From a virus, in the IMG/VR virus record IMGVR_UViG_3300030385_001875, positions 1-64,000 of that record: 64,000 nucleotides of DNA; one strand, given 5' to 3'. The notes under the pieces were generated by a model. The model was not told the origin of the DNA. It saw only the letters and a list, made by a program, of their open reading frames with translations, and did no database searches. The position numbers were made by a program, and so were the translations under genes. Of the stretch, positions 4,539-61,081 are shown piece by piece; the first letter of the stretch is position 1, and the number at the start of each line of letters is the position of its first letter.

Positions 4539-4556
4539 TTACGGAGGACAAAGATA

Positions 4557-4836: not shown

Positions 4837-5250
4837 ATGGAAGACCAGTTTATTGTTAGCTTTAATGACGAACTTCATCCTGAAGGGGAGTTCAGGGGAG
4901 TTATTGGTGATGTAGAGGTCGATGAGGGGCAGTTCGGAAGACAATACAAGTTCCATATAGATACAAATGAATCAGAAAGAGCCCTTTGGTTATGGACACA
5001 ACTAAAGACGGGTGAGACCAGCAAATTAGGCAAACTGTTGATGGCACTCAAGAACTGTAACTACAAGGAACTGATGGAATTTCTGTCGAAGGATGGGGAT
5101 AACCCCGAATTTGATGTCAGAAACACTATCGGGGCTGCATTAATGGTAACAGTTGAGCATAAAGAGAATCAACAAGGGCAAGCCAGAGCGTATATAACAG
5201 ATTTTAAGGGTCTGGAAGGTGATATCGAGCAAGAGGAGATACCATTTTAA
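4837..5250 (+). CDS. Putative single-stranded DNA-binding protein
   Basis: 137 residues, preceded by AAGGAG. The best clue is the C-terminus: an acidic run ending in EEIPF, matching the D/E-rich IPF tip by which bacterial and phage SSB proteins recruit partners. The N-terminal part alternates short beta-like segments (GEFRGVIGDVEV, QYKFHID) compatible with an OB fold. It sits between replication genes, and its stop overlaps the next start by one base. I infer SSB function from the tail and the context; a different small replication accessory protein remains possible. Confidence 0.55.
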   Translation: MEDQFIVSFNDELHPEGEFRGVIGDVEVDEGQFGRQYKFHIDTNESERALWLWTQLKTGETSKLGKLLMALKNCNYKELMEFLSKDGDNPEFDVRNTIGAALMVTVEHKENQQGQARAYITDFKGLEGDIEQEEIPF

Positions 5251-36426: not shown

Positions 36427-38124
36427 ATGGCTAAGTTTACAGAAGCTGAACTTGGATTGGGCGCATCAGCTATCGTTAAAAACATAATGACTTACAAGAC
36501 GATGGCAGATAAAGCTCGTACAAGTCGAAGAAGAGACGAAAGTAAACAGCTTTTTCAAAGAGCGAATTTAGAGCTTGATAAGCTAAAGACCGTGATCGAT
36601 GTTAAAAAGCTCCAACAGGATCAAGCATACAAAAAAGGTATCCTAGCCCATCAGGACAAAATTCTTCAGTTTAAACTTAATAATGAAAACAGCGTAGAGA
36701 ACAGACAGAAATCTGTTCAGAGTCTAATAAAAAATGAAGCTGTCGGCTTAACTCCTGCACAGATAAAGAACCTCCATATCTGGGCAGCTACAGACAACTC
36801 TAGTTTAATAGATGACATTCTTTCTGGACCTCAAAGCAAGCAACCTAGTGTTAATGATAGAAGCAATTTAAATAAATTGGGAGTTGACCTCCAATCCGAA
36901 GTACACGGGGTTCCTGCTACAAAGTCCCAGCAAGAGGCAGAGGGCTATGAAGGTGGGGGGTACGCATCCCGAAAGCATAAACCTCTCTCAGACCTAGTTA
37001 AAGATTACATTACAGATTACAATACTCCCGACGAAACTCGGGCTTTAGTTCACAAAGTAAGAAACTTGCAGATGCTGGTAAGCAATTTTGCTAAACCTGA
37101 GAATGCACGATGGATAGGTGGTTCAGAAGATATGGCATTAGACCAAATTGAAAGAGCGTTAAGTTCTCTCAATACTGTCGAAAACCCGCTTAACCCTAAA
37201 CAGGGTCGGCACGGTTTCATGTGGCATAAAAAGGCAGGAGGCCAGATAACCGACAAACTAGCTAAAGAAGCTGGGCAACAGTTTGGTCAAGTATGGAATA
37301 CTGCTGCCGACTATGAAGTGGGAATGGCAAAGGAACTGAACAACCTGCGATTAATGGTTAAAGCTGCAAAGGGTAAAGGACAGCCCCAGCAACAACAAGG
37401 ACAAGCCCAGCAACAACAAGGGCAACCCGGAGAACAGAAAGTCCGTGAAGGTGCAGCAACAGATATATGGAATAGCCAATCGGAAGCTCTTAAGGAAGAG
37501 GATCAGGGTGGGCTTTCTAGTAAAATGACGGAAGGTGTCGGTCCTAGAGATAAGGATCAGCCTAAAGTTTATGAGAAGCTAAGTCGTAGACAGCAAGGAA
37601 GATCAGGTCGTGAAGGAGATCTAGGGGACACGACACAAAATCCTGCTGTTTTACGAGCGCATCTGGGAGAAGACATGACGAGCGAGGAATCATCTGGAGA
37701 TTACCATTTCAAACCAGAGGGTAATAGAGGGCTCATCAAGGACGTAGTAGATAAGGCAGCATCATTTTGGAATACTAGAGGAGGTCAAGAGCTCGAGATT
37801 AAGGACCGCATAAATTCTATCCAAACGATGGTGACATCTCTTGAAAGGGGTGAAGGTCCTCCTAGACATCAGAAAAAAGTATTTGAAGATATGATGAGTT
37901 ACGCTCACGCTCTAGGTTGGCCTGAACCAGAACAGTCAGACTTAAGACTTTCTGAAGAATGGAAATCAAGGATGTTAGCCTTACTCAAAAAATTCACTCG
38001 AAAAGAGATTAAAGCACCTACAGAGAGAAGAGACATGAGTGGAAGTCTTTTAAAAGACACACAAGGTCAATGGTACAACAATATCAATAAGGGGGGTAAC
38101 AGTGGCTACCAACAAAACTACTGA
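36427..38124 (+). CDS. Internal virion (ejection) protein
   Basis: 565 residues, GGAGGAG ribosome site. Highly charged and helical, with a Gln-rich repeat (PQQQQGQAQQQQGQ) near residue 320 and no recognised enzymatic motif. It is sandwiched between the transglycosylase and the giant protein and overlaps the latter by 23 bases, so it is probably an ejected core protein. The assignment is by context. Confidence 0.55.
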   Translation: MAKFTEAELGLGASAIVKNIMTYKTMADKARTSRRRDESKQLFQRANLELDKLKTVIDVKKLQQDQAYKKGILAHQDKILQFKLNNENSVENRQKSVQSLIKNEAVGLTPAQIKNLHIWAATDNSSLIDDILSGPQSKQPSVNDRSNLNKLGVDLQSEVHGVPATKSQQEAEGYEGGGYASRKHKPLSDLVKDYITDYNTPDETRALVHKVRNLQMLVSNFAKPENARWIGGSEDMALDQIERALSSLNTVENPLNPKQGRHGFMWHKKAGGQITDKLAKEAGQQFGQVWNTAADYEVGMAKELNNLRLMVKAAKGKGQPQQQQGQAQQQQGQPGEQKVREGAATDIWNSQSEALKEEDQGGLSSKMTEGVGPRDKDQPKVYEKLSRRQQGRSGREGDLGDTTQNPAVLRAHLGEDMTSEESSGDYHFKPEGNRGLIKDVVDKAASFWNTRGGQELEIKDRINSIQTMVTSLERGEGPPRHQKKVFEDMMSYAHALGWPEPEQSDLRLSEEWKSRMLALLKKFTRKEIKAPTERRDMSGSLLKDTQGQWYNNINKGGNSGYQQNY

Positions 38125-41100
38125 GTCTCTTATATTTGGGGGGCAGACATATTCATATAAACTTCCTCGAGACCTTACTGAAGAAGAACAAGTTAGGATT
38201 AGCAGCTACACAAAGACTTTCCCTGAACTCGAGCCTTTGATTCAACAGAGACTTAACGATAAAGGGGCAGATGAGCTTATGAGGTTTTTTGATAGGCTCG
38301 ATACCCCTGAGAACATAATCAAGTCCATTAAAAAGGTTCAAAGCGGTGAAGTAAGCTCAGAGAGATTTTATGGAGACATAGCAGCAGGAACACAGACAGG
38401 TCTTGCTGCTGACCAATCACTAGGTGGGACACTTAGAGCAGAGGCTACACAGAGAGCTCCACATTTGGTGAAAACGTTCGCTAAGAATTCCCGAGATATC
38501 ATGGTGAACCTGAAAGAAGACCCTGTTAAGTTCCTTAAGGAAATCGGTTGGTCTATGATAACCTCACCTATTGTCATAGCAGCAGGTGGACTTGAGACAA
38601 CAGGGAAACTGTTTTCTGGAGATTATGCGACTGATCCTGATTGGAGTTGGAGACCGTTAACAGGTACAGGTGAGAAAGGGAAAGGGGTAGGGTTAGCTGG
38701 TGCTTTACAATTTGTACCTATGCTTGGTGCTGCTACCAGAGCAAGCCGATGGGCAAGGAACCTGAAAGGGTTCAGTGCAACAACCAAAGCGGGTAAAGTT
38801 ATGAGCGGAGCGTCAATAGCTCTAGGTAAAGCTGCTCGGTTTACTCCTGAAAGGGCTGTAGGGTACAAGCTTTCTAACACTCTTGCTGATTTACCTTTAG
38901 CTTGGAGAGATGCACTTTCAACCGCTGGTAACCTCGCTGAAATAGATCCTCTTGAACTAGTAGCTGACCTGCCTTTCCAACTGATGTTGAATGCTCCTCA
39001 GAGAATAGGTCTTCCTACCTTTGCCAGATACATTAAGAAGAGACAACTCAGGAAACAGGCAACCCAAGCAGCAACCCAAGCAGAAGCTGCTGCTAAAGAT
39101 CCTACACAGGTTCATAGGGCAGATATCACTCCCGAAAACTTTGATGAAGAGTTTTCTAACCTGATTGATACCATCACAACGATGGCAGAAGAAAAGGTAG
39201 GCCCAAAAGGTGTTTACACACCGTATAGAGATTTCCTGATGAATCTGGGTGACCAGCTTACGGAAATGGAGATGACTCCTGAAGGGTTAACGGAAGCTAG
39301 ACATCTCGTTGATGCTGCTAAAGAGGTTATCGATGAACTCACTACTAACGTCAGATCTATACTTGAAAACGCTGAACAACATGACCAAGTTCAGGAGATG
39401 CGTAGAGGGCAAGGATGGGGCGAAGAAGAAGTTAAAAATGGACTATCTGTTGTTGCAGCCACGATTAATCAGGAAATACAAAGATTAACAGAAGCTCCGT
39501 TCGCAACCAAAGGAACTGTAACAGCAGAAGAAGCAGAGGGAGTAAAAGCAGATAACGCTAAAAGATTAGAAACCCTGAAAGATGCTTTAGGGCAAATCAG
39601 CGGGTTTGAGCCCACCTTAGAAAACCTTACCTTGGCAGAACGGTTGATGGAATTTACTATCGATCCAGCAAACGTTGGGTATGAGGGTATAGGTGAAAGC
39701 ATCACCTCCGTAACTGAACATCTAGAAGAGTTAGCTTTAGGGTTACTTAGTAACAGTATGGGACAACAAGCCAAAAGCGGTGAAGTGTTAGATGATATTT
39801 TTTCGGACTTCCCGTTTGAAGCTTATACAGATATGAGTCGGTTCTCTAACCGTCCTTTCAGGTTCATAACTGCTCTTGATCAGATGGCAAGCGAAGAACT
39901 GGGAAGAGAAGCTACCAGAGCAGAAAAAGACGCTTACACTCGACGATTCGCTGCTAGTCTTATTAAGATGGCTGGAGCACTCCGTAATGATGGACCTACA
40001 ATGACCACGCTTGTTAATAGTGTTAACATTATTCGTGAGATTATTGCTGGAGTCTTCTCAACACCAGAGAGGACTCAAGGGTTACTTGAAACTGATGTTG
40101 CTTATATTCCTCAAGGACCTGCTGTAGTAGGGAAACCTTATTCAGGTTGGAATCCTCCCACTGAACAGGAGGCAACGCAGGAAGTAAACGAGGAGGATAA
40201 AGATGTAGAGGTAGAGGAAGAGGTAGAGGAAAAGGTAGAGGAAGAGGTAGAGGTAGAGGAAAAGGTAGAGGGAGATGTAGAGGAACCTGCACCTATTCAC
40301 GTCTCCCTAGATGACATCCTTGCAGACGACACAGTAGTAGCAGACGACACAGTAGAAGAGGTAGAGGAAAAGGAAGAGGTAAAACCACTTACGGGTAAGA
40401 TCGCAGCAGAAATAGATAAGTTTGGCGGTCTTGATGACATGTTTAGTGCTGCCCCTTCAATGGCAGACGAAGAATTACGTTCACAAACCCCTCTTACTGA
40501 TGCTCAAAAAGAAGAGAAAGCACGTCAATTCGCCTTAAAAATTGGAGTGCTACTCTTTAAGGAAAAGGTCAATGATTTCGGTGAATTTCTCGACTCAATG
40601 GTGGAGCTCCTAGTAAAAAGCCCTGAAGATATCCGCAAACTTGAGATAATGAAGGGGCCTATGGTATCTACTTGGGGGCAACTGCAAGGAGAGGCATATG
40701 GGAAAGGAGACACAGATTTTGCCAACAGCATGACACCATTAGCAGAAGTTGCTGCCTTGGTAGATAAAAGGATGTTTGATCTAACAGGTGAAGCTTTAGA
40801 AGAAGGAGATGAAGATGAATCCAGTGATGATGCTGGTCCAGAAAGGACGGGAGCTCAAGGAACGAGAACGGGTATTCAGGGAGATGCAGAAGCAGGAGGA
40901 GGAGAAGCAACGGATGGAGAAACTGTTTCAGGAGACAGAGGAGAAACTGAAGGAGACCCAGTTATTGGGGACGAAAGAGTCGGAGAAGATATTGCAGTCG
41001 ATCCAGAACCATCTCCAGAAGAAGGCCCCGTAGAACAACCCAAACAACCTATTATCCAGAGAATTAAGGATTTCTTCTTAACACCTGTCAGTCAGTCGGA

Positions 41101-44100
41101 TCGTCGTGTTCAGCAAGAGTTATCAGAACAGAAAGAACATATATCCTATCAAGCTCAAGACATCTTAACCCCTGATGGGGAATATGCGTTCGCTAATGAA
41201 GACGGGACTGATGCTGCCCATGACCATAAAGCGAAACTGGTTACTTCTTCCACTCTAGGTATGACAGTCTCCCCGCAAATAACTTATATTCCTGAAGGGC
41301 TAGACACAAATGTACAGGTCGTAACAAGGGATGAGACAGGAGCGATTGTCAAAGATGCAGAAGGTAATCCTGTCTCCGAGACAAAGAACATTGTTAGGGA
41401 CGGGTTACTAAGTAAGGTTCAGTTAGAAGCTATAGCTGTTGCAGGACAAACATGGTTGACACGAACGTATCAAGGGTTCCGCAAAGCGATAATGTGGGGA
41501 CACGGAACAGGTTCTGGTAAAGGAAGAATGATTGCGGGTGCTATCGTAGAGGCTTTCTCTAGAGTTCCCTCAAACGGGAAACGCAGGGCTTTATGGATAA
41601 CAGAATCTAAGTCGTTAGCTGAAACTGATGCGATGAGAGACTGGGAAGCTTTAGGCCAAGATCCCGAAATGATCTTCAATTTTGATAAAAGTAAGTGGGA
41701 TAAAAAGACAGCCAACACTACCAAGAGAGATGAGCAGGGTGTCACAGGTAACGTGGTTAACTTCTTACCTGATGAAGGGGTAATGACTATTACCTATCAT
41801 TCGTTGGGGTCAGGGGGAGGAGCAATTTCTGATATATTAAAGAACACTAATTTGTCTACTGAAGAAATGGATCGACAGATAGATGAAATTCTCCAGAAAA
41901 AGAAGGGGACCCAGTATCACAATTTAGTTACAGTTTTGAACTGGTTAACTTTTGGAGAGAAACAACGGATTACTTCTCACAAAACGATGAAAGATTCTCA
42001 TCTGAAATGGAAAGATTTTAGCGGTGTTATCGCTTTTGATGAAGCTCATACCATGAAAAAAGTGGGGACAGGAGCAGGGGCGGGAAGTAATGCGATGATA
42101 GCATTAGGGCTCCAACACCAAACACCTGAAAGCAGAATAGTTTATGCTACTGCGACGGCTGCATCTGAAGTAGATAATTTCCGTTATGCTTCTCGATTAG
42201 GGTTATGGGGTGAAGGGACAGAATTCGATAACGCTGATGATTTCATTACACATGTAGGTCGAACAGGTGTGGCAGGGCTGGAAATCCTAACTAAAGACAT
42301 GAAAGCGTTAGGTCTTTATGTTGCAGCACAACTCAGTTTTGAAGGTGTAGAAGTTGATCCTCTTCATATCGAATTAGATGATCAAGAGATAGAACGTTAT
42401 AACACTTTCGTTAAAGCGTTAGATGACGGGTATAAAGTTCTGGAACAGATTCTAGCTGACAACAGGATGAACCTCAGTAAAAATGATATAACCCAGATGA
42501 GGAGTCAATGGTGGGGCGAACATCAACGACTCGTTAATTCCTATCAAGCAGGATTGGTCACCAGTCAGATGCTGGACGATTTCCAGAATAACTACGGATC
42601 TGAAAACTACACCCCTGTTTTCCAGATGATCTCTACTGGAGAAACATCGTTTGAAAGAAGTATTGACAGGTTATTGTCTAACCCTAAATATACTGACAAG
42701 AACGGTAATATCACTATTCCGCAAGACGAAAACGGTAATTATATTCTATCTGAAGAGATGGTTAATGAAATCGATATTACAGGGAAACAAGATCTCATAG
42801 CCCAGATAGATAAGATGACAGATATACGTCCTTGGTCTGTAGGGCCTGACGGAGATAAGTCTATAAGTGCTAATCGGAAGGATGATTTAAAAGCTGATGG
42901 ACAAAAGTATGGGGCTGAGATACCCGCACCTATAGAAGACCTTGTACTGATTAAGGCCCGATTAATGGAAAGTCTCGAAACTGTTACACTTGCCACAATG
43001 CCGTTACATAGTCTCATAGAACATTTCGGTGCTGAGAACATAGCAGAAGCTACAGGAAGAAATCGAAGACTTATTAGCCGACCTAAAAAAGGTGGAGCAG
43101 AAGGTGAAAGAGAATACATTATAGAGAGGCACGGAAATAAAGGGAAATCGTCCGATATACTGGACTTCAAAAACGATGACAAAGAAGCTATTGTCTTCTC
43201 TATAGCAGGTGCTACAGGGCAAAGCTATCACGCTAGTAACGAATACAAGAACAAACGACAGCGAGTTCATTACGTCCTGCAACCCGGATGGGAAGCTGAT
43301 AAAACAATGCAGGGTTTCGGTAGGACTAACAGGACTGATCAGGCATCTGCACCTATCTATCGTATTCTTTCAACCAACCTACCTTCTTCCAAAAGGTTTT
43401 CTTCTGTTATTGCTAAAAGACTGCAAATGTTAGGAGCGTTATCAGAAGGAACACAAAAAGCTGGTGCAGCAGAGATGTTCTCAGGGGCTGAAAGTATCCT
43501 GCTAACACAAGAAGGAGTTCAAGTTTTAAGGAACTTCATCCGTGATACATGGTTCCGTTCTACTGGAACTGGTTGGAACCCTAGATCTCTTGCTAATCAA
43601 GAAATTATAAACGATTACTTAATAAACTTACAACATGAACCTGAAAAGACTCTTGTCCTAAGTAATCCCGACGGGTCATTATCCAAGCTTCAGAGCCTAG
43701 AAGTAGAGACAGGACTTGACTTAACAGAATTAGCGCAGATAGAGACAGACATCTCGTTAATCACGCAGGTATATGAAGCAGTAGCAGAACAGTTCGATTT
43801 CGCTAACGAAGCGTATAACAGAATGGGGTTAGAATGGGATATAGCAAATCAGGATGAGATTAATAGTGATCCAATGACTGATCCAGTATACATGCCTGTT
43901 CTTGGAGGCGGTACTGTTGATATGTCTCAATGGTTAAACAGGATGATGACACTTCCTTTCGGTTGGCAGAATTCTATTTTCGGTCTTATTGCGGGTAGAA
44001 TACAATCAGAATGGGATCAAGCGTTATCATTGGGGATTGCTGACACGGGGATTGAATCTGTAACAGCACATAAGATTAAACTCAATCCAAAGATGGAAGA

Positions 44101-47100
44101 TGTCCCTATCTTCACAGGAACTGCTGCCCAGACTTTTGCACATCAAGTAGACTTGGAACTTCCTCAAACAGAGACTCGTCTTTCAGGTATCGTTGAAAGG
44201 TTGAGAAACAATCTAGCTGAGTACCGAACCTTCAAGGGAATATTTAAAGATGGAGACGGTCAAGTTATGGCAGCATTCGCCAGTACTGTTTTGGAAGGGG
44301 AAGAAAGAAAAGGCAAGATCACAGCTATCTATCCGTCAAGGAAAAATGACTCAGCTTTGAAGGTGGTGGGTAACAACATGTCTTTATTTTACCTTGATGG
44401 CATCACCCAACTCATCAGCCGAGAAGAGTTCTTGAAAAACTTTGTGGACGGGGAAAGCGTTATTAGCCCTGATTGGGATGGGTCTCCTATGATGAACACT
44501 CCTTTTGGGCAAGAAGGGAGAGAAGGGCTTCAAAGAGGTGTTGAAGAATGGGTTAATCAACTGGTCGATGGGTATACTAAAAACGCTGTCGGTGTCCCCC
44601 TCCCTGAAGGGCAAACAAATAAAGATGCAGAAGGTAATCCTATATCTCTATACAAAGAGTCTCGGTGGTACATAACAGGAGCGCATCTACCTCTCTGGAA
44701 AAAGATAATGCCCAAATCAACATCGAGAGACAAAAAAAATGCTCCCCTCCCTATTATCAGAAGAATCTCCTTACCTTTTAAAGACGGTACTCAAGAACGA
44801 ATAGCTGTAGAAATAGCATCAAATAAGCTTTTTACCACGGCAACCGCTGAAGTAAAGGCGAAAGCTGTTATGGGGGCAGTAACACCTAAAACAAAGTATA
44901 TGGACAAAGACGCTCCTCATTTTGAAGGGGTGATTGATGAAGCGACAGGTATTTATCACGAACTTACCAGATGGTTTGACGAAGCATCTGAAAAAAAAGT
45001 ACTTGTATTGACTGACGGTTCTGTTCTGGTAGATTATCCTTATCAGTCTTTTGATTCTGAATCTGGACAAGAAGCAACTTTACACAGAATATACCTGTTT
45101 TCAGCTAAAGAAAACCCTCAAGTGCAAAATGAGATAAATTCTTCGGATAATTCTTTCTTTGTCTCTGAACATGCAGGGTTAGGGTTTGAAAGTGAAGGAA
45201 GAACAGACGATTTCCGTAAAAATGTGGAATGGTTCAAAGATAAAGGGTTCATTATTCATGCTGAAGAAGGGCAGTTAGTTCTCCCTTCAAGTAGGCACGA
45301 CGCAGTTAAGGCTTTAGCTAACGTTCTAAATGAGTTCTATATAGATCATGGACACATTGAAGGTACTGTTCATAAGATGTTCCCTGCTTCAACATTAAAA
45401 GCTTCAGCTTATAAACCTATCTATTTTGACACTCTTCCTTCAATGGAAACCCCTCCTGTAGGTCGTGTCTCAGAAATGATGTTTGACAGCATACCGCAAA
45501 TGTTAACCTCGGGCTTTGTTGTCAATGATGATCTTACTGGGGAACGCAAAGTGCTTTTCAACGCTGGGGAGACCAAGGTAGGTTATCCGGGGCACGAGAG
45601 AAACTTAAACGTAGACGACCTGTTTGCTAACGAGGAAGATATTAAGTGGATAGAGGAAAAACAACCCAATATAGCTGAATTACTCTTTTTTGAAGAGATG
45701 TGGGATGACGTTCCTCCTTCTGGAGGGTTCCGAGACCTGAGCTCAGGAGATCCTGTTTCTGGGGGCTATTTAAATAGTGGAGTTCAACATGTCTCAGTCC
45801 ATTTCTTAGGAGGTAAAACAGGAACTCACTTAGCGGAATACGGGTATATGGTAACTGTTTACAGACCATTACAGAAAAACCCTGAAACAGGTGAGGAAAT
45901 CGCCCATAGTGTTCAGTCAGTTATTGTTCCTGCATATGTATCTAAAGATGGTACACCCAAATTCCTAGAAGAAAACATGTCGGAAATGGAGAATCTTCTA
46001 GGCTCAAACAGACACTCAGAAAACCAACCCACAACAATCTTAAAAAGATTTAGTGGAAACCTTAACATACACCCGACAAGCAGGACATCTCGCAGAGTGA
46101 TGCAATTCCTGAATATCGCTATGCTGCAAGAGAAGAAAAGAAACATGGAACACAGGGCTGGACCTTTTGATCCGACACGGACTAAAAGGGTTTTTGATCA
46201 CGGGGATACAGGGCATGAAAAAACTGTTTACGCAACTGAAAGCGTTCCAGAGAACCTGTTTAACATGGCTGGTAGATTCGCTAAAGTGTTAGGGTTCCAT
46301 TTCGGAACAAACAAACACCTTGCTCCCACAAATCTCAAAGACACGCAAAAGGTACTGTGGGAGGACGAAGCTGGGAAACACAAAACCCACCGAGAAATAA
46401 GACAACGTCCTCAAACAGCTTCAAAGATACTTATCTATACCGACGTTGATTCAGGAGAAGCTGCTTCTTCTTGGGTAGAAGTAGATAGCATTAAAGATGG
46501 TCAAGGAACTAAGTACCGTAACTCTTTAAACATAAGAATGCCGTCAACTTATACCAGAGCATCTACCTACGACCATCATCCTGACCATGCTGAAGCTAAA
46601 ATCACTGTTTCACCTGCAACTGCTGCTAGGTTTAGGTTGAAAGCGTATGGAAGTTACTGGAATATCTTCTCTCCTCTAAGAGGAGAAGATGTTATGGGTA
46701 AATTCACACCTAATCTCGGTAACAGTAGAACTGATGGCTCCATATGTTTCAGGACACAAACCGCTGAAGACTCAACAATAGATGAACCTCAACAAGTAAT
46801 GACGTTAGCCCATGAAATGGGACATGCTTTTCACTACACGGTACTTGACTCTTTAAACTGGCAGTTCCAAGAACCTCTCTATCACTTGTTCAGAAAACTA
46901 CATGCTAAGATAGGTAAAGAAAAATGGACGGAAGAGATGCTCATTTATGCAGCGTCTAATCCGCAATATGCTAAAGACTTTTTAGAAGCTTTAAAAGCTT
47001 ATGATTTACCTCCAGATTCGCTCACAGACCCCGACAAAGTTAGAGCAGCACTCATTGCTGAAGGGGAACGGGGTGGAGAGTATGCCCAATACCTTTTAAG

Positions 47101-50100
47101 CCATGTGGAGTTGTTCGCCAACCAAATAGCTAAATGGGCTTTAGATGTCGGTGCTCTGGATAAAGATTTCCAAAAAGCCAGTAACAGTATAGATCCAGAT
47201 AAACGTCCGTTCTTAGCGATACTCAAGGAAGTGTTTAAAGACATTATCAAGTCGCTTAAAAAACTTTACAACGAAGTGCTAATCGCCTTAAAGGTACGTT
47301 TTCAAGGTGACTCCAGAAGCGAAGGGTTGGAATACCTAACAGTAAAACCGATGGTTTCATTTGCTGAATGGATGGACAATTGGGTTACAAGAGTAGAAGG
47401 TCACCGAGAAACAAAAAGAAAAACAGCAGGTGATGTAAAAAGGTTCTTTACATGGAAAAAAGATGATTACAACACTCTAAGAATCTTGCCAGAAGACCCT
47501 ATACTCCCTGATGAAGTTAAAGATGACCCTAGAGGAAAGATAGAAGATCACCAGATACCTAAAAGTGTCTTTGGAGAAAACGGAGACGCTAACGTTTTCC
47601 CGCAAGGGCTCGAACAAATAGATGTAGCTAGAGCGATGGCTCGTCGAAATATCTCCCCTGCTCCAGACAGTGATCCCGCAAGGGCAGAAGAAATTGAGAG
47701 TATGGCTATGGGGACAGGAGACTTTGTTAATAAAGCTAGAAATGTTATGGGTGAAGCGTGGAAAAAGGGCTGGCTTCCTATTGAACAAAAAACAGGGGCG
47801 GGTGACTTTTTCTTCACGATGGCTGTCCAACTAAGGAATCGAGGTTACGGATGGATGGTGGACCTCATAGAAGAAGTCAGGGATAACTCCCAAAGAAAAT
47901 GGGGGGAAGCGAACATCAAGATGTTAAAAGGTGAAGCCGAATTGCAGGGTGGATTCTGGAAGGGGTGGTACAGGAAATTCGGGGTCTATAATATTAAGGG
48001 AGTAGGGGTCCCAAAGAAGAACCAATACATGAAAGATGTAATGCCCCTGATTCGTAAGTTTATGGAGACAGGATATGAAAGGACATATAATAAAGGAACG
48101 AAACACGAACGACAGTTTGATGAAGAAGGTAACCGACTACTGCATCCTGTTGTTGTTGGGATTGACCTTAAAACAGCTTGGGGAACATTGGCAACATCAG
48201 AACAACGACGACCCGCAAAAACAGAAAAAGAAGCGTACCAATTGTTACTCGCTCATATCTCACACGTAGCGGAAGGTAAGGAAGAAGCGTTACTAGCTCC
48301 AGTTCTTGATATTGTCGCAGCGTGGAAAGAAAATAGAGAAGAGTTAGCTAACAAGATATTAGAGATCAGTGCCACTAACAAAGATATGGGTAAGTTAGGG
48401 GAGAAAGTAGATCCTGACGAAGAGTTAGCTGAACTGCTTATGTCTATAGCATTAGGCCCAGCTAACGGTAATAACCCTCCAGCAAAAGCGCAACTGGCTA
48501 ACTTACTTAACTCTAATTTTGGTGTCAGTATTACACCTGAACTAATCATTAGAGAAGCTACAAAAGATAACCTTATTAAAAGAGGTGTCTTGTTCCTTGT
48601 CCAAGATGTCGCTAATCAATACGCTGTGGCATATGATAACGGGAAAGTAATAATATATGACCACAAAAGAATGAGAGACCCTGTTTGGTTATATGACGGA
48701 AACCTAAAAATTAAGAGCGAATGGTCACCTCACAAAGCGGATTACTTACCTCACATGTTCGATCTGGAAAAATTGGGGATGGACAACCCAGCTTCCGCAA
48801 AATGGAAAGCTAGTGTTAAAGCTTTCATGGATGCGAACCCTGACAAGAATTGGGATGAAGCTATGGCAGCACAAAAGCTGTCGAGTTATATCGTAAATTC
48901 AAGGAGTAACAAATTCGGTAACCTTGAATTCACAAGAGAATACAATATCCCTTGGTATGAAGAAGACTTCTTTAAAATCACTTCAATCTACTTGTCCCGT
49001 GCATGGAGACGGGCCTACGAGATAGAGGCTTTTGGTCAAAACAACGAAATCTATGAAGAGATGATGCTCGACTTTGCTTCGGGCCAAACAGACACAAGAT
49101 CTGTATCTCCAAGCCTGTTCAAGCTCAATAGACAACATAAAGCGACCCGTAAACTACGAGATGCGATGGGGTTCAACACCCCTTGGGCTCAAAGTTTACG
49201 GGGGTTGATTGATAACGCTATGCCGTTAGCAGCAGAACAAGAGAGAGGGTCTAAACTCTACTCAACTTTCTTTAACCCTGAAACAGGTGAACCGTACCAT
49301 CTTAACAAAGATGAACCTCAGTTTCAGTATATGTCACTTAGGGATTGGGAGACTCTTGAAGAGGCAGGGATTCTTAACGCTAACAGGGATAATGCGGGTA
49401 ACATTCAGTCATATAATGCTGTACCAGAAACTGCACACGTAGTTAATGCGCTCTTCGAGATAACTCCTGAAGGTATTGATAACGACAGTATAGCACGAAA
49501 GTGGATTGATAGGCAGATAGGAAGCGTCCATTCCTCCAGTGAAGAACGTCGGTTAGATGATCTGTATAAAGAGTTAAAAACGGCTGCTGCATGGGCATTC
49601 CTTTCCCGAGCATGGACTTCTAATATCTCTCAACCAGCGAACGCTGTCAGGTGGACAGGAATGCGGTCTTTCTTGGAAGCTGTCCGAGACATCTTCAAAG
49701 AACAAGACCGAGATTGGGCTGCTGCCACAGGTGCATTAACCAGTGATATCGCTGCTTTTTACAGTGGAGGTGTTTTCAGTGCTGATGTCCTTCTTCGTAG
49801 ATGGACACCATTCCAGTTTATTGAAGCCAAGATTAACCGTCAAATCTCAGCACTTGCTGGTAGAAACTATCTGGTAGTAGCATTAAAGAAATTCCAGAAG
49901 AACCCTGATGCCAAAGAATTACGACGGTTTACGGAACTGGATTTAGTTAGGTTATCAGATGAAGAGCTCGGTGCACTCGGGGCAACAGCAACAGAGAAAG
50001 ATATCGATAGAGCAAAAGCAGAGAAAACAAAAGAACTGCTTTTTGATGCTATAGGTGAGAACGGGGTTACAGAAGAAGAGATCAATATAGCGAAAAGCTT

Positions 50101-50878
50101 TGCCTCAAATGTTCTTCCATACGTTACGAAAGATGCAGACGGAAAAGCTGTCCTAACTGAAGAGAAGGATAGTAACGGTAACCGTATAGTTAAAGGTGAC
50201 TACACGCATCTCCAAAAACTTTCGCAAATAATTTCGAGAGGTGCGTTACGGATTTCAAATAAGACCCAGTTCAAAACAGAACCTATCGATCTTCCTCCAT
50301 CGTACACTGCATCTCCTCTGGGTAAACTGATGGGCCAGTTTACAACGTTCACCATCAAACAAGCACAGTTCACTAAAGATGCGCTTTGGAGAGATTGCAA
50401 GAACTTCAGGAACGATCCGTTCGGTGTCCTACCTCCGATGTTGTCATTTCTAGTTGCAGCAGGAGGTTTGGGAATGGTGTCCAATATCATTGGTTCACTG
50501 TTCAACGCTGATATAGACGAAGCTAAGAAATGGATCTATGAATCAAACGAAATTCAAAACCTTCTTGCACACTGGAACCGAGCAGCAGCGTTTGGAGCAA
50601 TCTCCTACTTATTAGATGTAGGGAATATCCCGGGAGCAATAGGCGGGTTCTTTAGTATCCGTGCATTCGGCCTTGCTGAAAGGTTGTACAGGTATCCACA
50701 GAAAGCTCCGAGACTAATCCCTGTAGTTGGACCTGCAATACAAACAACTTTAGATAGAGGTTTCAAGGAAGGTTTCTGGGGAGGAGATGAAGATTACGGT
50801 ACTCCTGCTATGAATCAGGTTATGGGAAGAAGAGGCCGAGGTGGGGGTAGAGGTAGAGGCAGAGACACACGGAGATAG
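38102..50878 (+). CDS. Giant polyvalent ejection protein with strawberry-notch helicase and HEMGH motif
   Basis: 4,258 residues, GTG start with a GGGGGG-rich ribosome site. The N-terminal about 700 residues are helical, with a hydrophobic stretch near 155-170. An acidic Glu/Val linker (about 700-760) and a charged Gly/Glu linker (about 900-980) follow. A superfamily 2 helicase of the strawberry-notch type spans about 1,100-1,800: Walker A GHGTGSGKGRMIAGA near 1,133, FDEAHTMK near 1,312, YATATAASE near 1,350, and motif VI GFGRTNRTDQAS near 1,738. HEMGH (2,904-2,908) is a zinc-metallopeptidase-type motif in TLAHEMGHAFHYT. Later there are helical segments, a hydrophobic stretch near 4,110 and a final Arg/Gly-rich tail. 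Like P1 DarB, which also carries a strawberry-notch-like helicase, it may be injected to protect incoming DNA; here I see no methyltransferase motif. Confidence 0.75.
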   Translation: MATNKTTESLIFGGQTYSYKLPRDLTEEEQVRISSYTKTFPELEPLIQQRLNDKGADELMRFFDRLDTPENIIKSIKKVQSGEVSSERFYGDIAAGTQTGLAADQSLGGTLRAEATQRAPHLVKTFAKNSRDIMVNLKEDPVKFLKEIGWSMITSPIVIAAGGLETTGKLFSGDYATDPDWSWRPLTGTGEKGKGVGLAGALQFVPMLGAATRASRWARNLKGFSATTKAGKVMSGASIALGKAARFTPERAVGYKLSNTLADLPLAWRDALSTAGNLAEIDPLELVADLPFQLMLNAPQRIGLPTFARYIKKRQLRKQATQAATQAEAAAKDPTQVHRADITPENFDEEFSNLIDTITTMAEEKVGPKGVYTPYRDFLMNLGDQLTEMEMTPEGLTEARHLVDAAKEVIDELTTNVRSILENAEQHDQVQEMRRGQGWGEEEVKNGLSVVAATINQEIQRLTEAPFATKGTVTAEEAEGVKADNAKRLETLKDALGQISGFEPTLENLTLAERLMEFTIDPANVGYEGIGESITSVTEHLEELALGLLSNSMGQQAKSGEVLDDIFSDFPFEAYTDMSRFSNRPFRFITALDQMASEELGREATRAEKDAYTRRFAASLIKMAGALRNDGPTMTTLVNSVNIIREIIAGVFSTPERTQGLLETDVAYIPQGPAVVGKPYSGWNPPTEQEATQEVNEEDKDVEVEEEVEEKVEEEVEVEEKVEGDVEEPAPIHVSLDDILADDTVVADDTVEEVEEKEEVKPLTGKIAAEIDKFGGLDDMFSAAPSMADEELRSQTPLTDAQKEEKARQFALKIGVLLFKEKVNDFGEFLDSMVELLVKSPEDIRKLEIMKGPMVSTWGQLQGEAYGKGDTDFANSMTPLAEVAALVDKRMFDLTGEALEEGDEDESSDDAGPERTGAQGTRTGIQGDAEAGGGEATDGETVSGDRGETEGDPVIGDERVGEDIAVDPEPSPEEGPVEQPKQPIIQRIKDFFLTPVSQSDRRVQQELSEQKEHISYQAQDILTPDGEYAFANEDGTDAAHDHKAKLVTSSTLGMTVSPQITYIPEGLDTNVQVVTRDETGAIVKDAEGNPVSETKNIVRDGLLSKVQLEAIAVAGQTWLTRTYQGFRKAIMWGHGTGSGKGRMIAGAIVEAFSRVPSNGKRRALWITESKSLAETDAMRDWEALGQDPEMIFNFDKSKWDKKTANTTKRDEQGVTGNVVNFLPDEGVMTITYHSLGSGGGAISDILKNTNLSTEEMDRQIDEILQKKKGTQYHNLVTVLNWLTFGEKQRITSHKTMKDSHLKWKDFSGVIAFDEAHTMKKVGTGAGAGSNAMIALGLQHQTPESRIVYATATAASEVDNFRYASRLGLWGEGTEFDNADDFITHVGRTGVAGLEILTKDMKALGLYVAAQLSFEGVEVDPLHIELDDQEIERYNTFVKALDDGYKVLEQILADNRMNLSKNDITQMRSQWWGEHQRLVNSYQAGLVTSQMLDDFQNNYGSENYTPVFQMISTGETSFERSIDRLLSNPKYTDKNGNITIPQDENGNYILSEEMVNEIDITGKQDLIAQIDKMTDIRPWSVGPDGDKSISANRKDDLKADGQKYGAEIPAPIEDLVLIKARLMESLETVTLATMPLHSLIEHFGAENIAEATGRNRRLISRPKKGGAEGEREYIIERHGNKGKSSDILDFKNDDKEAIVFSIAGATGQSYHASNEYKNKRQRVHYVLQPGWEADKTMQGFGRTNRTDQASAPIYRILSTNLPSSKRFSSVIAKRLQMLGALSEGTQKAGAAEMFSGAESILLTQEGVQVLRNFIRDTWFRSTGTGWNPRSLANQEIINDYLINLQHEPEKTLVLSNPDGSLSKLQSLEVETGLDLTELAQIETDISLITQVYEAVAEQFDFANEAYNRMGLEWDIANQDEINSDPMTDPVYMPVLGGGTVDMSQWLNRMMTLPFGWQNSIFGLIAGRIQSEWDQALSLGIADTGIESVTAHKIKLNPKMEDVPIFTGTAAQTFAHQVDLELPQTETRLSGIVERLRNNLAEYRTFKGIFKDGDGQVMAAFASTVLEGEERKGKITAIYPSRKNDSALKVVGNNMSLFYLDGITQLISREEFLKNFVDGESVISPDWDGSPMMNTPFGQEGREGLQRGVEEWVNQLVDGYTKNAVGVPLPEGQTNKDAEGNPISLYKESRWYITGAHLPLWKKIMPKSTSRDKKNAPLPIIRRISLPFKDGTQERIAVEIASNKLFTTATAEVKAKAVMGAVTPKTKYMDKDAPHFEGVIDEATGIYHELTRWFDEASEKKVLVLTDGSVLVDYPYQSFDSESGQEATLHRIYLFSAKENPQVQNEINSSDNSFFVSEHAGLGFESEGRTDDFRKNVEWFKDKGFIIHAEEGQLVLPSSRHDAVKALANVLNEFYIDHGHIEGTVHKMFPASTLKASAYKPIYFDTLPSMETPPVGRVSEMMFDSIPQMLTSGFVVNDDLTGERKVLFNAGETKVGYPGHERNLNVDDLFANEEDIKWIEEKQPNIAELLFFEEMWDDVPPSGGFRDLSSGDPVSGGYLNSGVQHVSVHFLGGKTGTHLAEYGYMVTVYRPLQKNPETGEEIAHSVQSVIVPAYVSKDGTPKFLEENMSEMENLLGSNRHSENQPTTILKRFSGNLNIHPTSRTSRRVMQFLNIAMLQEKKRNMEHRAGPFDPTRTKRVFDHGDTGHEKTVYATESVPENLFNMAGRFAKVLGFHFGTNKHLAPTNLKDTQKVLWEDEAGKHKTHREIRQRPQTASKILIYTDVDSGEAASSWVEVDSIKDGQGTKYRNSLNIRMPSTYTRASTYDHHPDHAEAKITVSPATAARFRLKAYGSYWNIFSPLRGEDVMGKFTPNLGNSRTDGSICFRTQTAEDSTIDEPQQVMTLAHEMGHAFHYTVLDSLNWQFQEPLYHLFRKLHAKIGKEKWTEEMLIYAASNPQYAKDFLEALKAYDLPPDSLTDPDKVRAALIAEGERGGEYAQYLLSHVELFANQIAKWALDVGALDKDFQKASNSIDPDKRPFLAILKEVFKDIIKSLKKLYNEVLIALKVRFQGDSRSEGLEYLTVKPMVSFAEWMDNWVTRVEGHRETKRKTAGDVKRFFTWKKDDYNTLRILPEDPILPDEVKDDPRGKIEDHQIPKSVFGENGDANVFPQGLEQIDVARAMARRNISPAPDSDPARAEEIESMAMGTGDFVNKARNVMGEAWKKGWLPIEQKTGAGDFFFTMAVQLRNRGYGWMVDLIEEVRDNSQRKWGEANIKMLKGEAELQGGFWKGWYRKFGVYNIKGVGVPKKNQYMKDVMPLIRKFMETGYERTYNKGTKHERQFDEEGNRLLHPVVVGIDLKTAWGTLATSEQRRPAKTEKEAYQLLLAHISHVAEGKEEALLAPVLDIVAAWKENREELANKILEISATNKDMGKLGEKVDPDEELAELLMSIALGPANGNNPPAKAQLANLLNSNFGVSITPELIIREATKDNLIKRGVLFLVQDVANQYAVAYDNGKVIIYDHKRMRDPVWLYDGNLKIKSEWSPHKADYLPHMFDLEKLGMDNPASAKWKASVKAFMDANPDKNWDEAMAAQKLSSYIVNSRSNKFGNLEFTREYNIPWYEEDFFKITSIYLSRAWRRAYEIEAFGQNNEIYEEMMLDFASGQTDTRSVSPSLFKLNRQHKATRKLRDAMGFNTPWAQSLRGLIDNAMPLAAEQERGSKLYSTFFNPETGEPYHLNKDEPQFQYMSLRDWETLEEAGILNANRDNAGNIQSYNAVPETAHVVNALFEITPEGIDNDSIARKWIDRQIGSVHSSSEERRLDDLYKELKTAAAWAFLSRAWTSNISQPANAVRWTGMRSFLEAVRDIFKEQDRDWAAATGALTSDIAAFYSGGVFSADVLLRRWTPFQFIEAKINRQISALAGRNYLVVALKKFQKNPDAKELRRFTELDLVRLSDEELGALGATATEKDIDRAKAEKTKELLFDAIGENGVTEEEINIAKSFASNVLPYVTKDADGKAVLTEEKDSNGNRIVKGDYTHLQKLSQIISRGALRISNKTQFKTEPIDLPPSYTASPLGKLMGQFTTFTIKQAQFTKDALWRDCKNFRNDPFGVLPPMLSFLVAAGGLGMVSNIIGSLFNADIDEAKKWIYESNEIQNLLAHWNRAAAFGAISYLLDVGNIPGAIGGFFSIRAFGLAERLYRYPQKAPRLIPVVGPAIQTTLDRGFKEGFWGGDEDYGTPAMNQVMGRRGRGGGRGRGRDTRR

Positions 50879-54400: not shown

Positions 54401-55183
54401 ATGTTAAACCTCTGGAACTCTCAAACCCCCCAGACGATTATTATGACTTCAGCTATGTATACAGGGACAACTTTCCTGAGAGAACTTTTGATATCGATAC
54501 CGCACTTGGTAACAACCCTAACCAGAGACCTAGCCAATGACAAGTCGGGGCCTTTTTATTTGCAGGATTGCACAGGTAAGGTTTGGAATTCACCTCAAAT
54601 TAACTTAACTGATCTTAATAGCTATTTAACTAAACTGAAGAGAGGTAATGGCAAGATATTATTCCTAGAAGGGCATATCCATGAACATTGGATGCACAGT
54701 CTTGTCTTTTTTGTGACTTTTAATCATAAAGTCATATCCCCCATAAGACATCCATTTGATTCGTTGCTAACGAAATACCTGAGACAAGAACCTCATATCC
54801 TAAATACTGACCCTTACGACAGGCATCCGGGTTGGCTTTGGTCTTACTTGCAGATCCTAGCCTTACAAAAGAATCGACCTAAAGATGTAGTTTTGGTTCC
54901 TGTTGATTTATTAGGTCAAAAACCTGAAGAGGAACGGGTAACCGAACTTGTTTCTTTGTTAGCTAGTATTGGTGTCAAGGTCAGTGAAAAGAAAAATCAG
55001 GAATTTTACCAGTTAGCTAGGGAATGGAAACCAACAAACACTCACACTTCACAGTTTCAAGAAGAAAAGAGAGCAGTCAGCGATGAAGTGTATCAAGAAA
55101 TTACTGACAGGTTAGAGAAATCCAATGTTTACTACTATTTGGAACAAGCAGGGATTCATTACCCCATAAAAAAAAGACCCTAG
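54401..55183 (+). CDS. Sulfotransferase-like protein
   Basis: 260 residues. The N-terminal TSAMYTGTTFLRELL is the P-loop-like 5'-phosphosulfate-binding motif of PAPS-dependent sulfotransferases, and ISPIRHPFDSLLTKYL carries the expected RHPFDS of the 3'-phosphate loop. These enzymes transfer sulfate from PAPS to sugars or proteins. Last gene of the rightward cassette; its stop lies in the stem of the terminator. Sulfation would change surface charge; the target is unknown. Confidence 0.7.
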   Translation: MLNLWNSQTPQTIIMTSAMYTGTTFLRELLISIPHLVTTLTRDLANDKSGPFYLQDCTGKVWNSPQINLTDLNSYLTKLKRGNGKILFLEGHIHEHWMHSLVFFVTFNHKVISPIRHPFDSLLTKYLRQEPHILNTDPYDRHPGWLWSYLQILALQKNRPKDVVLVPVDLLGQKPEEERVTELVSLLASIGVKVSEKKNQEFYQLAREWKPTNTHTSQFQEEKRAVSDEVYQEITDRLEKSNVYYYLEQAGIHYPIKKRP

Positions 55184-55206
55184 TGAATGAGACTAGGATC
55201 TTTTTT
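55171..55206. terminator. Bidirectional intrinsic terminator between convergent genes
   Basis: CCTAGT (55179-55184) and ACTAGG (55192-55197), extended by G-C and A-T pairs around one mismatch, are flanked by A8 on the left and T6 on the right. It therefore works in both directions: for the rightward late genes, and for any leftward transcript crossing the array at 55311-55872. Confidence 0.85.
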
Positions 55207-55310
55207 ATTGTTTGAAAATAACAAAGGAGAAGCAATATGAACGAGCGATGTCTGAAAACGCTATGACTGAAGCACACATTGCAACATAAACAGTCTAACT
55301 CAACAGAACA
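55207..55310. other. Short spacer with vestigial reading frames
   Basis: AAAGGAG lies before an ATG at 55237 that opens only nine codons; a second ATG at 55248 opens 13 codons. The good ribosome site with no real gene suggests the remnant of a deleted gene or a micro-peptide. No other feature seen. Confidence 0.35.
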
Positions 55311-55872
55311 GTCTTGTCAAGAGTCGTATCGTTGTGTCCCGTCTCGTCGCATTGTTATGTTGTGGGATGTCGCATTGTGTTATGTCGCATTGTCCAGTAA
55401 CGTCCTGATCCGTCCCGTCTCGTCGCAGTGTCAAGTGCAGTCCGGTCCCGTAAAGTCGCATTGTATTGTTTGGGCTAGTTTCGTACTGTATTGGTTACGT
55501 CGCAATGGCAAGTCAAATAGCGTATAGTTTGGTCGCATTGTGATGTCAAGTGAAGTCTGGTCGGGTCCCGTCCAGTCGCATTGTCCCGTACAGTTGCGTT
55601 CTGTTTAGTCGCATTGTCAAGTCACGTTCGGGGTGAAGGCTCGTCCTGTCGCATTGTGAAGTCCTGTCGTGTCATGTCCAGTCCCGTCGCATTGTATCGT
55701 ATTGTCCTGTCTTTGTCTGGTCATGTCGCATTGTACCGTATCGGTGCGTCAAGTCTTGTCGCATAATGTATCGTCGCATTGTTCGGTAGCGGATAAGTTA
55801 GGTCCTGTCGCATTGTTTCGTTTTGTTTTGTCCAGTAACGCCCTGTTTCGTTCCGTCGCATTGTAATGTAAT
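55311..55872. repeat. Composite array 1: GTCGCATT headers plus GTNNN pentamers
   Basis: Thirteen exact copies of GTCGCATTGT begin at 55346, 55369, 55384, 55455, 55532, 55575, 55608, 55648, 55686, 55725, 55773, 55807 and 55855. Near copies begin at 55422, 55499 and 55758. Between headers the sequence parses into consecutive GTNNN pentamers with freely varying NNN, so spacing is 8+5n in many cases (23, 33, 38, 43, 48). A few intervals are off by one or two bases because of imperfect pentamers. The period of five excludes a coding explanation. The array lies after the leftward epimerase gene and before a leftward terminator. Confidence 0.9.
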
Positions 55873-55967: not shown

Positions 55968-55976
55968 ATTATAGCA
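55968..55976 (-). promoter_or_regulatory. Extended -10 promoter reading leftward into array 1
   Basis: On the minus strand the sequence reads TGCTATAAT, a perfect extended -10 element just beyond the epimerase stop. There is no good -35, as is common with extended -10 promoters. Initiation near 55961 would produce a roughly 790-nt RNA covering array 1 and ending at the terminator at 55206-55171. Confidence 0.5.
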
Positions 55977-55978
55977 CA

Positions 55979-56986
55979 TTAGCACCAATCGTGATAATCT
56001 TTGTACCAATCCACGAAATTTTGTACCCCCACCTTAATAAAAGTGCGAGGTCGGTAAGTCGTCACTTCCTGCAATTTACTGATATCTGCATTGGTGAAAC
56101 TGATATCTCCCAGTTGATAATCTGTTAGCTTGATTTTCAGCTTTTTCCCCGTTGCATCTTCAATCGCTTTCACAAAGTGATACTTACCCTGCCAATCCTC
56201 TGAATAAAGCGGGACGGGATTGTTTGATCCCACGTTGAAGATATGATGATAAAATGGCCTTGGGTTTTCTATACCACTCAACCCTCGTTCCATCGCTAAG
56301 ACCAAACCTTCTACCGCATCATCGACGTAGGTAAAGTCTCTGGCTTGGGAGCCAGACCCATACAACTCTACCTCTTCATCTTCAAGGATAGCTTTAGTGA
56401 ATTTCCATAAAGCCATATCGGGTCTACCCCAAGGCCCGTAAACAGAAAATAACCTTAAACCTGTGCAAGGAATTCCGTACATGCGGGAATAAGCTTCTGC
56501 TGTCACCTCGTTACTCTTCTTGGTAGCAGCATACAGCGAATAAGGGTGATCTGTGTTATCAGTTTCCTTGTACCCTGTGGATGTACTAACCCCATAAACA
56601 CTTCCTGAAGAAGCGTACACCAAATGAGGTGTCGGGTTCATGTTTCGAGCAGTTTCCAGTACCGATTGGAAGCCTGTGATGTTAGGCAGGTATTCTTCAG
56701 GATGATCGATTGAATGGCGAACACCCGCTTGTGCAGCAAGATGAATAATCACATCTATACCACGAAAAGTCAGGTCCTCTTTCTCCATCCCCACAACATC
56801 CATATGTTTGAACTCGAATTTCCAGTTGTCCATCCATTCAAGATTACCGATCCTATCTTTTTTCAGCTTAACGTTATAGTAGTTATTGATGTTATCGATA
56901 CCTATAACGTTATGGTTATCGGATAACAATCTCTTAGTAACGTGATAACCAATAAACCCAGCGCAACCTGTAACTAGAATCTTCAT
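55979..56986 (-). CDS. UDP-glucuronate 4-epimerase-like NAD-dependent epimerase
   Basis: 335 residues, AGGAGG before the ATG. GCAGFIGYHVTKRLL is the NAD-binding GxxGxxG motif. AAQAGVRHSIDHP, ASSGSVYG and YSLYAATKK (the YxxxK catalytic pair) place it in the short-chain epimerase family. AAQAGVR is typical of UDP-glucuronate 4-epimerases (CapI/Lpp type), which supply UDP-galacturonate for surface glycans. The start overlaps the preceding gene's stop. It could supply the phage glycosyltransferases or alter host capsule. Confidence 0.8.
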   Translation of the reverse strand: MKILVTGCAGFIGYHVTKRLLSDNHNVIGIDNINNYYNVKLKKDRIGNLEWMDNWKFEFKHMDVVGMEKEDLTFRGIDVIIHLAAQAGVRHSIDHPEEYLPNITGFQSVLETARNMNPTPHLVYASSGSVYGVSTSTGYKETDNTDHPYSLYAATKKSNEVTAEAYSRMYGIPCTGLRLFSVYGPWGRPDMALWKFTKAILEDEEVELYGSGSQARDFTYVDDAVEGLVLAMERGLSGIENPRPFYHHIFNVGSNNPVPLYSEDWQGKYHFVKAIEDATGKKLKIKLTDYQLGDISFTNADISKLQEVTTYRPRTFIKVGVQNFVDWYKDYHDWC

Positions 56987-58691: not shown

Positions 58692-58737
58692 AAAAAAAGC
58701 GTGAAAACTAACCGTTTTAGAGGCTAATTTTCACGCT
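58692..58737 (-). terminator. Strong leftward terminator after array 2
   Basis: AGCGTGAAAA (58698-58707) and TTTTCACGCT (58728-58737) pair perfectly, and further pairs extend the stem inward. On the minus strand it is followed by T7 (58698-58692). It would end transcripts that carry array 2. Confidence 0.88.
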
Positions 58738-58744
58738 TACCAAT

Positions 58745-59145
58745 GTCACGTTTTGTGAAGTGTCGTACCGTTCTGTTTGGTCGCATTGTAAAGTACAGTG
58801 GGGTTGCGTGACGTTCCGTCGCATTGTAGAGTACAGTGTCGTAAGGTTTCGTCGCATTGTTGGGTGTTGGAACAGAAAGTATCGTCATGTCGCATTGTCT
58901 TGTTATGTGGTGTATCGTATTGTCATGTCGCATTGTTACGTACTGTTTTGTCGCATTGTATAGTATCGTCTTGTCGCATTGTGAAGTTTTGTCCAGACTG
59001 CGTTGCGTCTCAGCTTGTCGCATTGTAAAGACATGAGAGTAAGCCTAGGCGCACCTAGGCTTATCTTTCATCCGTTTTTAGGCTTACGTTACCTTACTCA
59101 TGGTATAGTATCGTCTTGTCCTGTCGCATTGTTACGTTTCGTCGT
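58745..59145. repeat. Composite array 2: GTCGCATT headers plus GTNNN pentamers
   Basis: Nine exact GTCGCATTGT copies begin at 58780, 58818, 58851, 58889, 58927, 58950, 58973, 59017 and 59123. The intervals 38, 33, 38, 38, 23, 23 and 44 again follow 8+5n, apart from one base in the last. The variable pentamer bases differ from those of array 1, so this is not a recent duplication. A palindromic element at 59032-59102 interrupts the array. It lies between the end of the leftward gene at 59157 and the terminator at 58692-58737. Confidence 0.9.
59032..59102. other. Nested inverted repeats inside array 2
   Basis: TAAGCCTAGG (59040-59049) and CCTAGGCTTA (59054-59063) are perfect 10-bp arms around CGCA. 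A third half-copy, TAGGCTTA, lies at 59079-59086. Outer arms CATGAG...TAAG (59032-59044) and CTTACTCATG (59093-59102) could close the whole. Alternative pairings are mutually exclusive. Confidence 0.7.
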
Positions 59146-60309: not shown

Positions 60310-60407
60310 TATTGTGCTCCCACGACAATAGACATTACTTTCAAAAAGACTAGCACCCCCATACTACCAGCTATCAGGGTGAAAATGTCTGCGAAGAATG
60401 TTTTCAT
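60309..60407 (-). CDS. 32-residue membrane peptide
   Basis: ATG preceded by GAGGGGAG. The product is a single hydrophobic helix (IFTLIAGSMGVLVFLKVMSI). Overlaps both neighbours by a few bases, indicating translational coupling and a real gene. Role unknown, perhaps an early inner-membrane effector. Confidence 0.55.
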   Translation of the reverse strand: MKTFFADIFTLIAGSMGVLVFLKVMSIVVGAQ

Positions 60408-61081
60408 TTTTTCGCTCCCCTCTTCTTCTTCGCAGGTGGATCTATTTCTTCAAACACTACTACGTCGAACTTCCCTTTCTCAAAGCTTCGTTGGGAGCCC
60501 AGCCCAACTTCCTGTCCCAACTCAAGGATTTCTTGCAGGTGCTCGGGGTTAATGTCTTTAGTGCCTTCCATCCTCACACTGAGACACCAGATTTGAAACT
60601 CAAGGGTTGGCTTGATAAGATACTCCGCACTCTTGAGGATTGACCGCATCCCTTGCATGGTCTGAACGTGACCAGCAAAGTCCTCGATACCGTCTTCCTT
60701 GGGTCGGAACGGTTGAAATATAATCTTCTCTTCCGTGAACTCCTCCCCAATCCGTCCCTTCACCGCTGTCCCTTCACGAAGCGTCTGCTTACTTCCCCTG
60801 AGAAGTACAGTTAGCTTCAGTAGGGAAATGCACTGCTTCATCATCGCCTTGACAGCGTAGTCTCCAATATATAAAGCGTCTCTTTCAGTGCATCGCTTGA
60901 AGCCTGTTCGTACCTTCTCCTCCTCCTCTTCCAGATCCAAATCAGTTTCCACAATGGAGGTATCCTCTGACCCGAATTTCGCTTCCACGTAATTCTTGAC
61001 GAGCTCTTTCGATTTCGGGAGCCCACCGTAGATACGGTTGCGGAATTCCAGCTTCACATTAAACTTCCTGAATATACTCAT
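60404..61081 (-). CDS. Conserved phage protein of the annealing/recombination neighbourhood
   Basis: 225 residues, GGAGAAG upstream. GLPKSKELVKNYVEAKFG near residue 20 and LQEILELGQEVGLGSQRS near 185 match a phage family I remember only as hypothetical. These were seen close to recombination and DNA-metabolism genes. The C-terminus is Lys-rich. No catalytic motif identified. Confidence 0.5.
   Translation of the reverse strand: MSIFRKFNVKLEFRNRIYGGLPKSKELVKNYVEAKFGSEDTSIVETDLDLEEEEEKVRTGFKRCTERDALYIGDYAVKAMMKQCISLLKLTVLLRGSKQTLREGTAVKGRIGEEFTEEKIIFQPFRPKEDGIEDFAGHVQTMQGMRSILKSAEYLIKPTLEFQIWCLSVRMEGTKDINPEHLQEILELGQEVGLGSQRSFEKGKFDVVVFEEIDPPAKKKRGAKK

Follow-up and report, generated by a model that had tools for sequence, protein, structure and literature searches.

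The closest described system to the locus reported here is VIPR (Viral Interference Programmable Repeat), in which the phage RAMP protein Vipr binds RNAs of 9–16 GGY/NN repeats (preprint, April 2026, PMC13142463). According to this preprint, pairing with double-stranded DNA is by the NN positions, one target base is skipped per repeat, five guide bases covering three target bases, and the complex acts as a repressor of genes in competing phages and satellites (PMC13142463). Seven types are distinguished there, with GGY/NN "or a related consensus", some of them having "staggered arrays with overlapping vrRNAs" (PMC13142463). We analyzed a 64,000-nucleotide stretch of viral DNA (hereafter the window), covering positions 1–64,000 of the 64.9-kb IMG/VR virus record IMGVR_UViG_3300030385_001875. 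The window contains intergenic arrays of GTNNN pentamers (arrays A, B, and C), divided into units by a recurring 8-nt header, near a gene for a small RAMP protein related to the Vipr of phage SUSP1, and therefore appears to carry a VIPR-like system belonging to a divergent clade. We consider it very probable that the arrays are guide-RNA arrays, which work together with the RAMP protein encoded at 60404–61081 to block genes of competing phages.

The initial annotation had described array A as a non-coding tract parsing into GTNNN pentamers, with 13 exact and three near copies of the header. This description holds at 55311–55872: the exact copies of GTCGCATTGT lie within 55346–55864, and the near copies are found at 55422 (GTCGCAGTGT), about 55500 (GTCGCAATGG), and about 55759 (GTCGCATAAT). 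Autocorrelation against shuffled sequence, which it had proposed as a check, gave 62 GT pairs at lag 5 versus 17.0 ± 3.7 expected from 500 dinucleotide shuffles (z = 12); 50 such pairs are left when the headers are masked, and GT pairs are also enriched at lags 10, 15, 23, and 28. The header spacing follows the proposed 8 + 5n in 61 of 77 cases among five arrays of three related phages (binomial p ~1e-28). Because the lag-5 enrichment is present and the spacing is conserved in relatives, the periodic structure stands on both of the points at which it could have failed. Overlooked at first were arrays B and C, with nine exact headers in total; the rest of the record and the opposite strand contain no further array of this kind. 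The regular units between headers hold 3–9 repeats each, mostly 5–6, and their triplets include 57 of the 64 possible ones, G being scarce (9–13%).

Open reading frames (ORFs) run across array A on either strand, in several frames, and their sole matches are other arrays, so the array is indeed not coding. Folding of a part of array A gave no sign of structure (z = −0.3 for the AC strand and −1.3 for the GT strand). Neither the window nor ten array loci had an above-threshold Rfam match or a hammerhead, the minus-strand matches at 55168–55291 being weak and far under the threshold; a tRNA search found none, and array A had no BLAST match among sequenced phages. In bacterial and archaeal genomes, a scan for the header together with pentamers produced 32 single matches, which we regard as chance because none has lag-5 enrichment.

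A pattern scan of viral contigs identified two relatives with the same header, G001 (locus L001) and G002 (L002). G001 belongs to the same phage lineage as the window; both arrays are found in it at corresponding positions, and their flanks are conserved. G002 contains a 1.4-kb array with the header GTCGCANN. The window and G001 have conserved array A ends but just 3 of 14 units in common; one unit from array A of G001 lies in array B of the window, which also has a unit that is found again in G002 with two changes. The few common units, the relocated units, and the steady period tell us, therefore, that units turn over and move as blocks between related phages, with the period and the flanks kept. 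The terminase of the window phage shares ~21–27% identity with those of varied phages and indicates no host.

To widen the class, viral contigs were scanned for a run of GT pentamers interrupted by one GT-N6 gap, the header not being required. Many contigs with other headers were found, e.g., GTGNN arrays with GGAAAA-type spacers, and in most of the contigs the neighboring genes run antisense to the GT strand. In an all-protein comparison of the array contigs, one recurrent family adjoining arrays emerged, phrog_4652, of unknown function in PHROGs, whose relatives in the sequenced phages SUSP2, LESphi2, DSL-LC04, and MakoManhole adjoin intergenic pentamers made of GGT or GGC and two free bases. 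A second array-adjoining family comprises the window gene and its homologues in G001, G002, L061, L081, L099, L114, and Microcystis phage Mae-JY09, which has been sequenced and whose host is named. For 62 loci fetched by the DNA pattern alone, we sought a Vipr-like ORF of either family within 1 kb and found it in 20 of the 33 loci with a diverse pentamer array versus none of the 29 with simple repeats or no array. Since several loci end at contig ends, 20/33 is a lower bound; in G001 and G010, for example, the gene lies outside the fetched stretch. The distance between array and RAMP gene is 28 bp in G002 and 1.3–4.5 kb in the window, and the RAMP protein of the window clade had no match in plasmids. 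The initial annotation had proposed a modular oligomeric protein meeting one fixed dinucleotide (AC in RNA) per five bases, which is largely right in view of the RAMP recurring beside arrays, but it overlooked that the NNN triplets are probably the message, i.e., the guide.

The contig L066 (G003, 5.5 kb) carries clear diverse GTNNN-like arrays at 4311–4722 and 5080–5335, and none of its proteins matches either RAMP profile. At 38460–38976 of Mae-JY09 (L145), the homologue of the window RAMP adjoins a stretch of GG pentamers and recurring GGGTNGTC elements, with 32 GG pairs at lag 5 versus 11–20 at lags 2–4 as raw counts. Gordonia phage MakoManhole (L149) has pentamer stretches at 1640–1700 and 2980–3140 beside its Vipr-like gene, followed by a repeated hairpin-forming element (GCTCGGATGGTCGCAGGTGGGGTTCGACTCC.CACCCGAGC) that resembles part of a tRNA.

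As for the proteins, the first family (phrog_4652) matches PDB entry 36pp, "SUSP1 Vipr protein", with E = 9e-55, and its model, with a predicted local distance difference test (pLDDT) score of 81, matches Cas7/Csm3-type chains of type VII and type III CRISPR complexes with E down to 6e-8. The window family aligned by profile to this Vipr-containing family (E = 1.5e-5, probability 80%) and to the PADLOC Csm4 model over its glycine-rich C terminus (E = 2e-4), and the PDB matches listed by Foldseek for the window protein model are all type III/VII CRISPR proteins (Csm3/Cas7) and Cas7-11. Profiles and models together identify the predicted product of the window gene as a small Cas7/Csm3-like RAMP, a distant relative of SUSP1 Vipr.

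In the window (G000), G001, and G002, terminator-like hairpins follow the arrays solely in the AC sense, and the promoter-like site pointing into array A is also found in G001, despite the different gene beyond it there. Judging from these hairpins and the promoter-like site, the array RNA is probably (NNNAC)n with AAUGCGAC headers, made from the minus strand (Table 1). Two features weaken the strand assignment: the T-run between the promoter-like site and array A could likewise stop transcription, and the GT strand is the sense of the gene in L081 and L114.

Table 1. Coordinates of the arrays, the RAMP gene, and associated signals in the window.
Feature	Position	Strand	Description
Terminator-like inverted repeat	55170–55206	−	Past array A in the AC sense; could act on either strand
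Array A	55311–55872	− (probable)	GTNNN pentamers, NNNAC in the probable RNA; ~15 units, header GTCGCATT (AATGCGAC) between units
Promoter-like site	55968–55997	−	TTATCA-18-TATAAT, TG ahead of the second hexamer; AC-sense orientation, into array A
Terminator-like hairpin, strong	58697–58738	−	17 pairs and a T-run, directly past array B in the AC sense
Array B	58745–59026	− (probable)	Make-up and strand as array A; eight exact headers
Array B unit with primase match	58859–58888	− (probable)	Triplets match MDFVNP codons of a competitor primase at 17/18 bases (G019 = L156:1069–1086)
Array C	59103–59142	− (probable)	Short; one header
Vipr-like RAMP protein (predicted)	60404–61081	−	225 aa, C-terminal glycine-rich loop GLGSQRSFEKGKFDVV

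Between the terminator-like repeat and array A, two tiny overlapping ORFs (MNERCLKTL and MTEAHIAT; 55235–55285, plus strand) follow a Shine-Dalgarno-like AAAGGAGAAG and are almost identical in G001. The stretch between arrays B and C (59030–59100) contains imperfect inverted repeats around CCTAGGCGCACCTAGG and GTAAGCCTAGG/TAGGCTTAC, which are also kept in G001. A nucleotide-sugar epimerase-like gene (55979–56986, minus strand) lies between the array A promoter-like site and the early genes; it is present in the window and not in G001, and therefore looks recently inserted.

Starting from the observed arrays, their period and header spacing, the RAMP protein, its recurrent association with arrays, and the unit turnover, we propose the following mechanism. 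The arrays would be transcribed leftward (minus strand), each repeat contributing a fixed AC (GT on the plus strand) and three variable bases, and the header would mark off the units. Copies of the Vipr-like RAMP would assemble with the array RNA by coating it, one subunit per five nucleotides. The RAMP may hold the fixed dinucleotide and show the variable bases to double-stranded DNA, with a read-out pitch of three target bases per repeat, and the resulting complex would block gene expression of competing phages.

By analogy, GT/NNN units at the VIPR pitch would read consecutive target triplets. When the triplets were decoded at pitch 3 against 1.3 Mb of contigs, 3 of the 37 longer units matched with at most one mismatch versus 0.12 for shuffled triplet order, and among the spacings tested only pitch 3 gave an excess; in three contigs of close relatives, there were two near-perfect matches versus 0.02 expected. 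The better of these matches is that of the array B unit in Table 1. Its triplets read ATGGATTTTGTTAACCCA in the coding sense, and codons 23–28 of the primase on contig G019, from a related competitor, are ATGGATTTCGTTAACCCA, in frame and with a single, synonymous wobble difference from the unit. The window phage's own primase has ATGGAATTTGTCAACGAA, with four differences. Reading and skipping the wobble-aligned base give the same fit at this match. Two further matches, one of a 15-base unit in G019 with two mismatches and one of 17/18 bases in G009, were left out of the evidence. Decoded window-type units showed no excess against the window's own genome or G001/G002, and GTGNN arrays of other phages, decoded against the same contig set, gave no signal and were uninformative. 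The competitor-target signal from triplet decoding is suggestive only. It is a tentative and rather doubtful extension that in the code of this clade two bases are fixed and three vary, the latter all being read as consecutive triplets with no skip, with the 8-nt header as a per-unit tag in a CRISPR-like unit array turning over between rival phages.

The likeness to VIPR as described in the preprint, e.g., for Escherichia phage SUSP1, lies in intergenic phage arrays of pentamers near a small ancestral RAMP gene, in repeats combining fixed and hypervariable bases, and in the probable use against competing phages; like Vipr, the window RAMP would be a single-RRM RAMP homologue with a glycine-rich loop, by a model of low confidence. 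What recurs in the window is the 8-nt header, with no unusual folding, which may set it apart from VIPR, for which a structured invariable 3′ tail is described; the window RAMP clade, unlike VIPR, has no PHROGs match and no Pfam match of note.

Several points weigh against the VIPR-like interpretation. The fixed bases in the window are GT (AC in the probable RNA) followed by NNN, compared with the published GGY and NN; header-delimited units mostly hold 5–8 repeats, which may fall short of the 9–16 per guide RNA, depending on the transcript ends; and the accessory (vap) gene described beside vipr has no conserved counterpart in the window clade, in which eight loci share nothing within 5 kb but the RAMP gene and array-derived ORFs. 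The window protein model is of low confidence (pLDDT 47, template modeling scores near 0.3), and the profile similarity of its family to Vipr is modest. The target signal consists of two matches, obtained with several read-out rules tried, and the second of them, in which a G001 unit matches close to where a small gene of the G019 competitor begins, is off the codon register with a mismatch at a middle position. The array RNA, with its transcription and strand, is a prediction from DNA sequence. On balance, the window system is for now best called a divergent VIPR variant, which differs from the core description in the preprint in its motif, probable unit length, header, and lack of an accessory gene.

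Type III and VII CRISPR-Cas effectors (Csm3, Csm4, and Cas7) likewise have the RAMP fold with a C-terminal glycine-rich loop and subunits that meet a guide RNA periodically, the guides coming from a unit array with a short repeated element (8 nt in the window). The window differs in lacking palindromic repeats and Cas1/Cas2, in having a single RAMP gene, and in the period of five with fixed bases inside the guide; instead of identical 20–40-bp repeats, cas1/cas2, and a multi-gene effector, we found an 8-bp element and one conserved protein gene. It is unlikely that the same RAMP-RNA complex targets RNA (the target in type III/VII CRISPR) or some other molecule in place of double-stranded DNA. 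The nearest folds of both families are indeed Csm3/Cas7 of RNA-targeting complexes, but the nearest characterized array-plus-RAMP system binds DNA according to the preprint (PMC13142463), and the gene neighborhood of the window clade contains no conserved nuclease or accessory gene.

The initial annotation had offered a different protein as an analogy. The trp RNA-binding attenuation protein (TRAP) binds single-stranded RNA with a five-base spacing, and this spacing is what the window shares with it. If the array RNA served an oligomeric RNA-binding protein as a mere platform or decoy, the triplets would carry no information, in keeping with a fixed motif at a five-base period and freely varying triplets. 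We find this improbable: the arrays extend over hundreds of bases, up to 1.4 kb, units are exchanged as blocks, the protein belongs to the guide-binding RAMP class, and one unit matches the primase codons of a rival. Motif, protein family, and genetic context also differ from TRAP, whose sites are (G/U)AG every 4–5 bases in a leader, whereas the window element is GT on one strand and AC on the other, with no series of (G/U)AG, and its associated protein is a RAMP. VIPR is the appropriate model instead.

Very improbable is a DNA element such as iterons, a centromere, or recombination hot spots under a DNA-binding protein. GT-rich intergenic direct repeats on one strand would suit it, but there are 2–3 arrays per genome in the early gene region, with promoter- and terminator-like bounds in one sense, and their constant companion is a RAMP rather than a protein of replication or partition. 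Neutral expansion of functionless repeats, suggested by the simple GT pentamer tracts of other contigs, has next to no probability given the diverse triplets, the headers in register, and the same protein class adjoining arrays in distant phages.

VIPR has been known only since April 2026, from GGY/NN loci, and the GT/NNN arrays with their short header and unit turnover suggest that the guide code has diversified. The clade offers a natural comparison for which bases of the pentamer the RAMP holds and which are read, and it may represent a step towards CRISPR-style unit arrays. As the window RAMP clade matches neither Pfam nor PHROGs, such systems are missed in annotation, and the bare DNA pattern of repeated GT-N3 with one GT-N6 gap detects them.

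Elsewhere in the window, a single ORF of 4258 aa (38102–50878, plus strand) contains helicase-like stretches. Another ORF of 1423 aa (18412–22683, plus strand) consists mostly of LPAGTNNIGDVDIAS-like repeats, to which tandem repeats in the DNA correspond.
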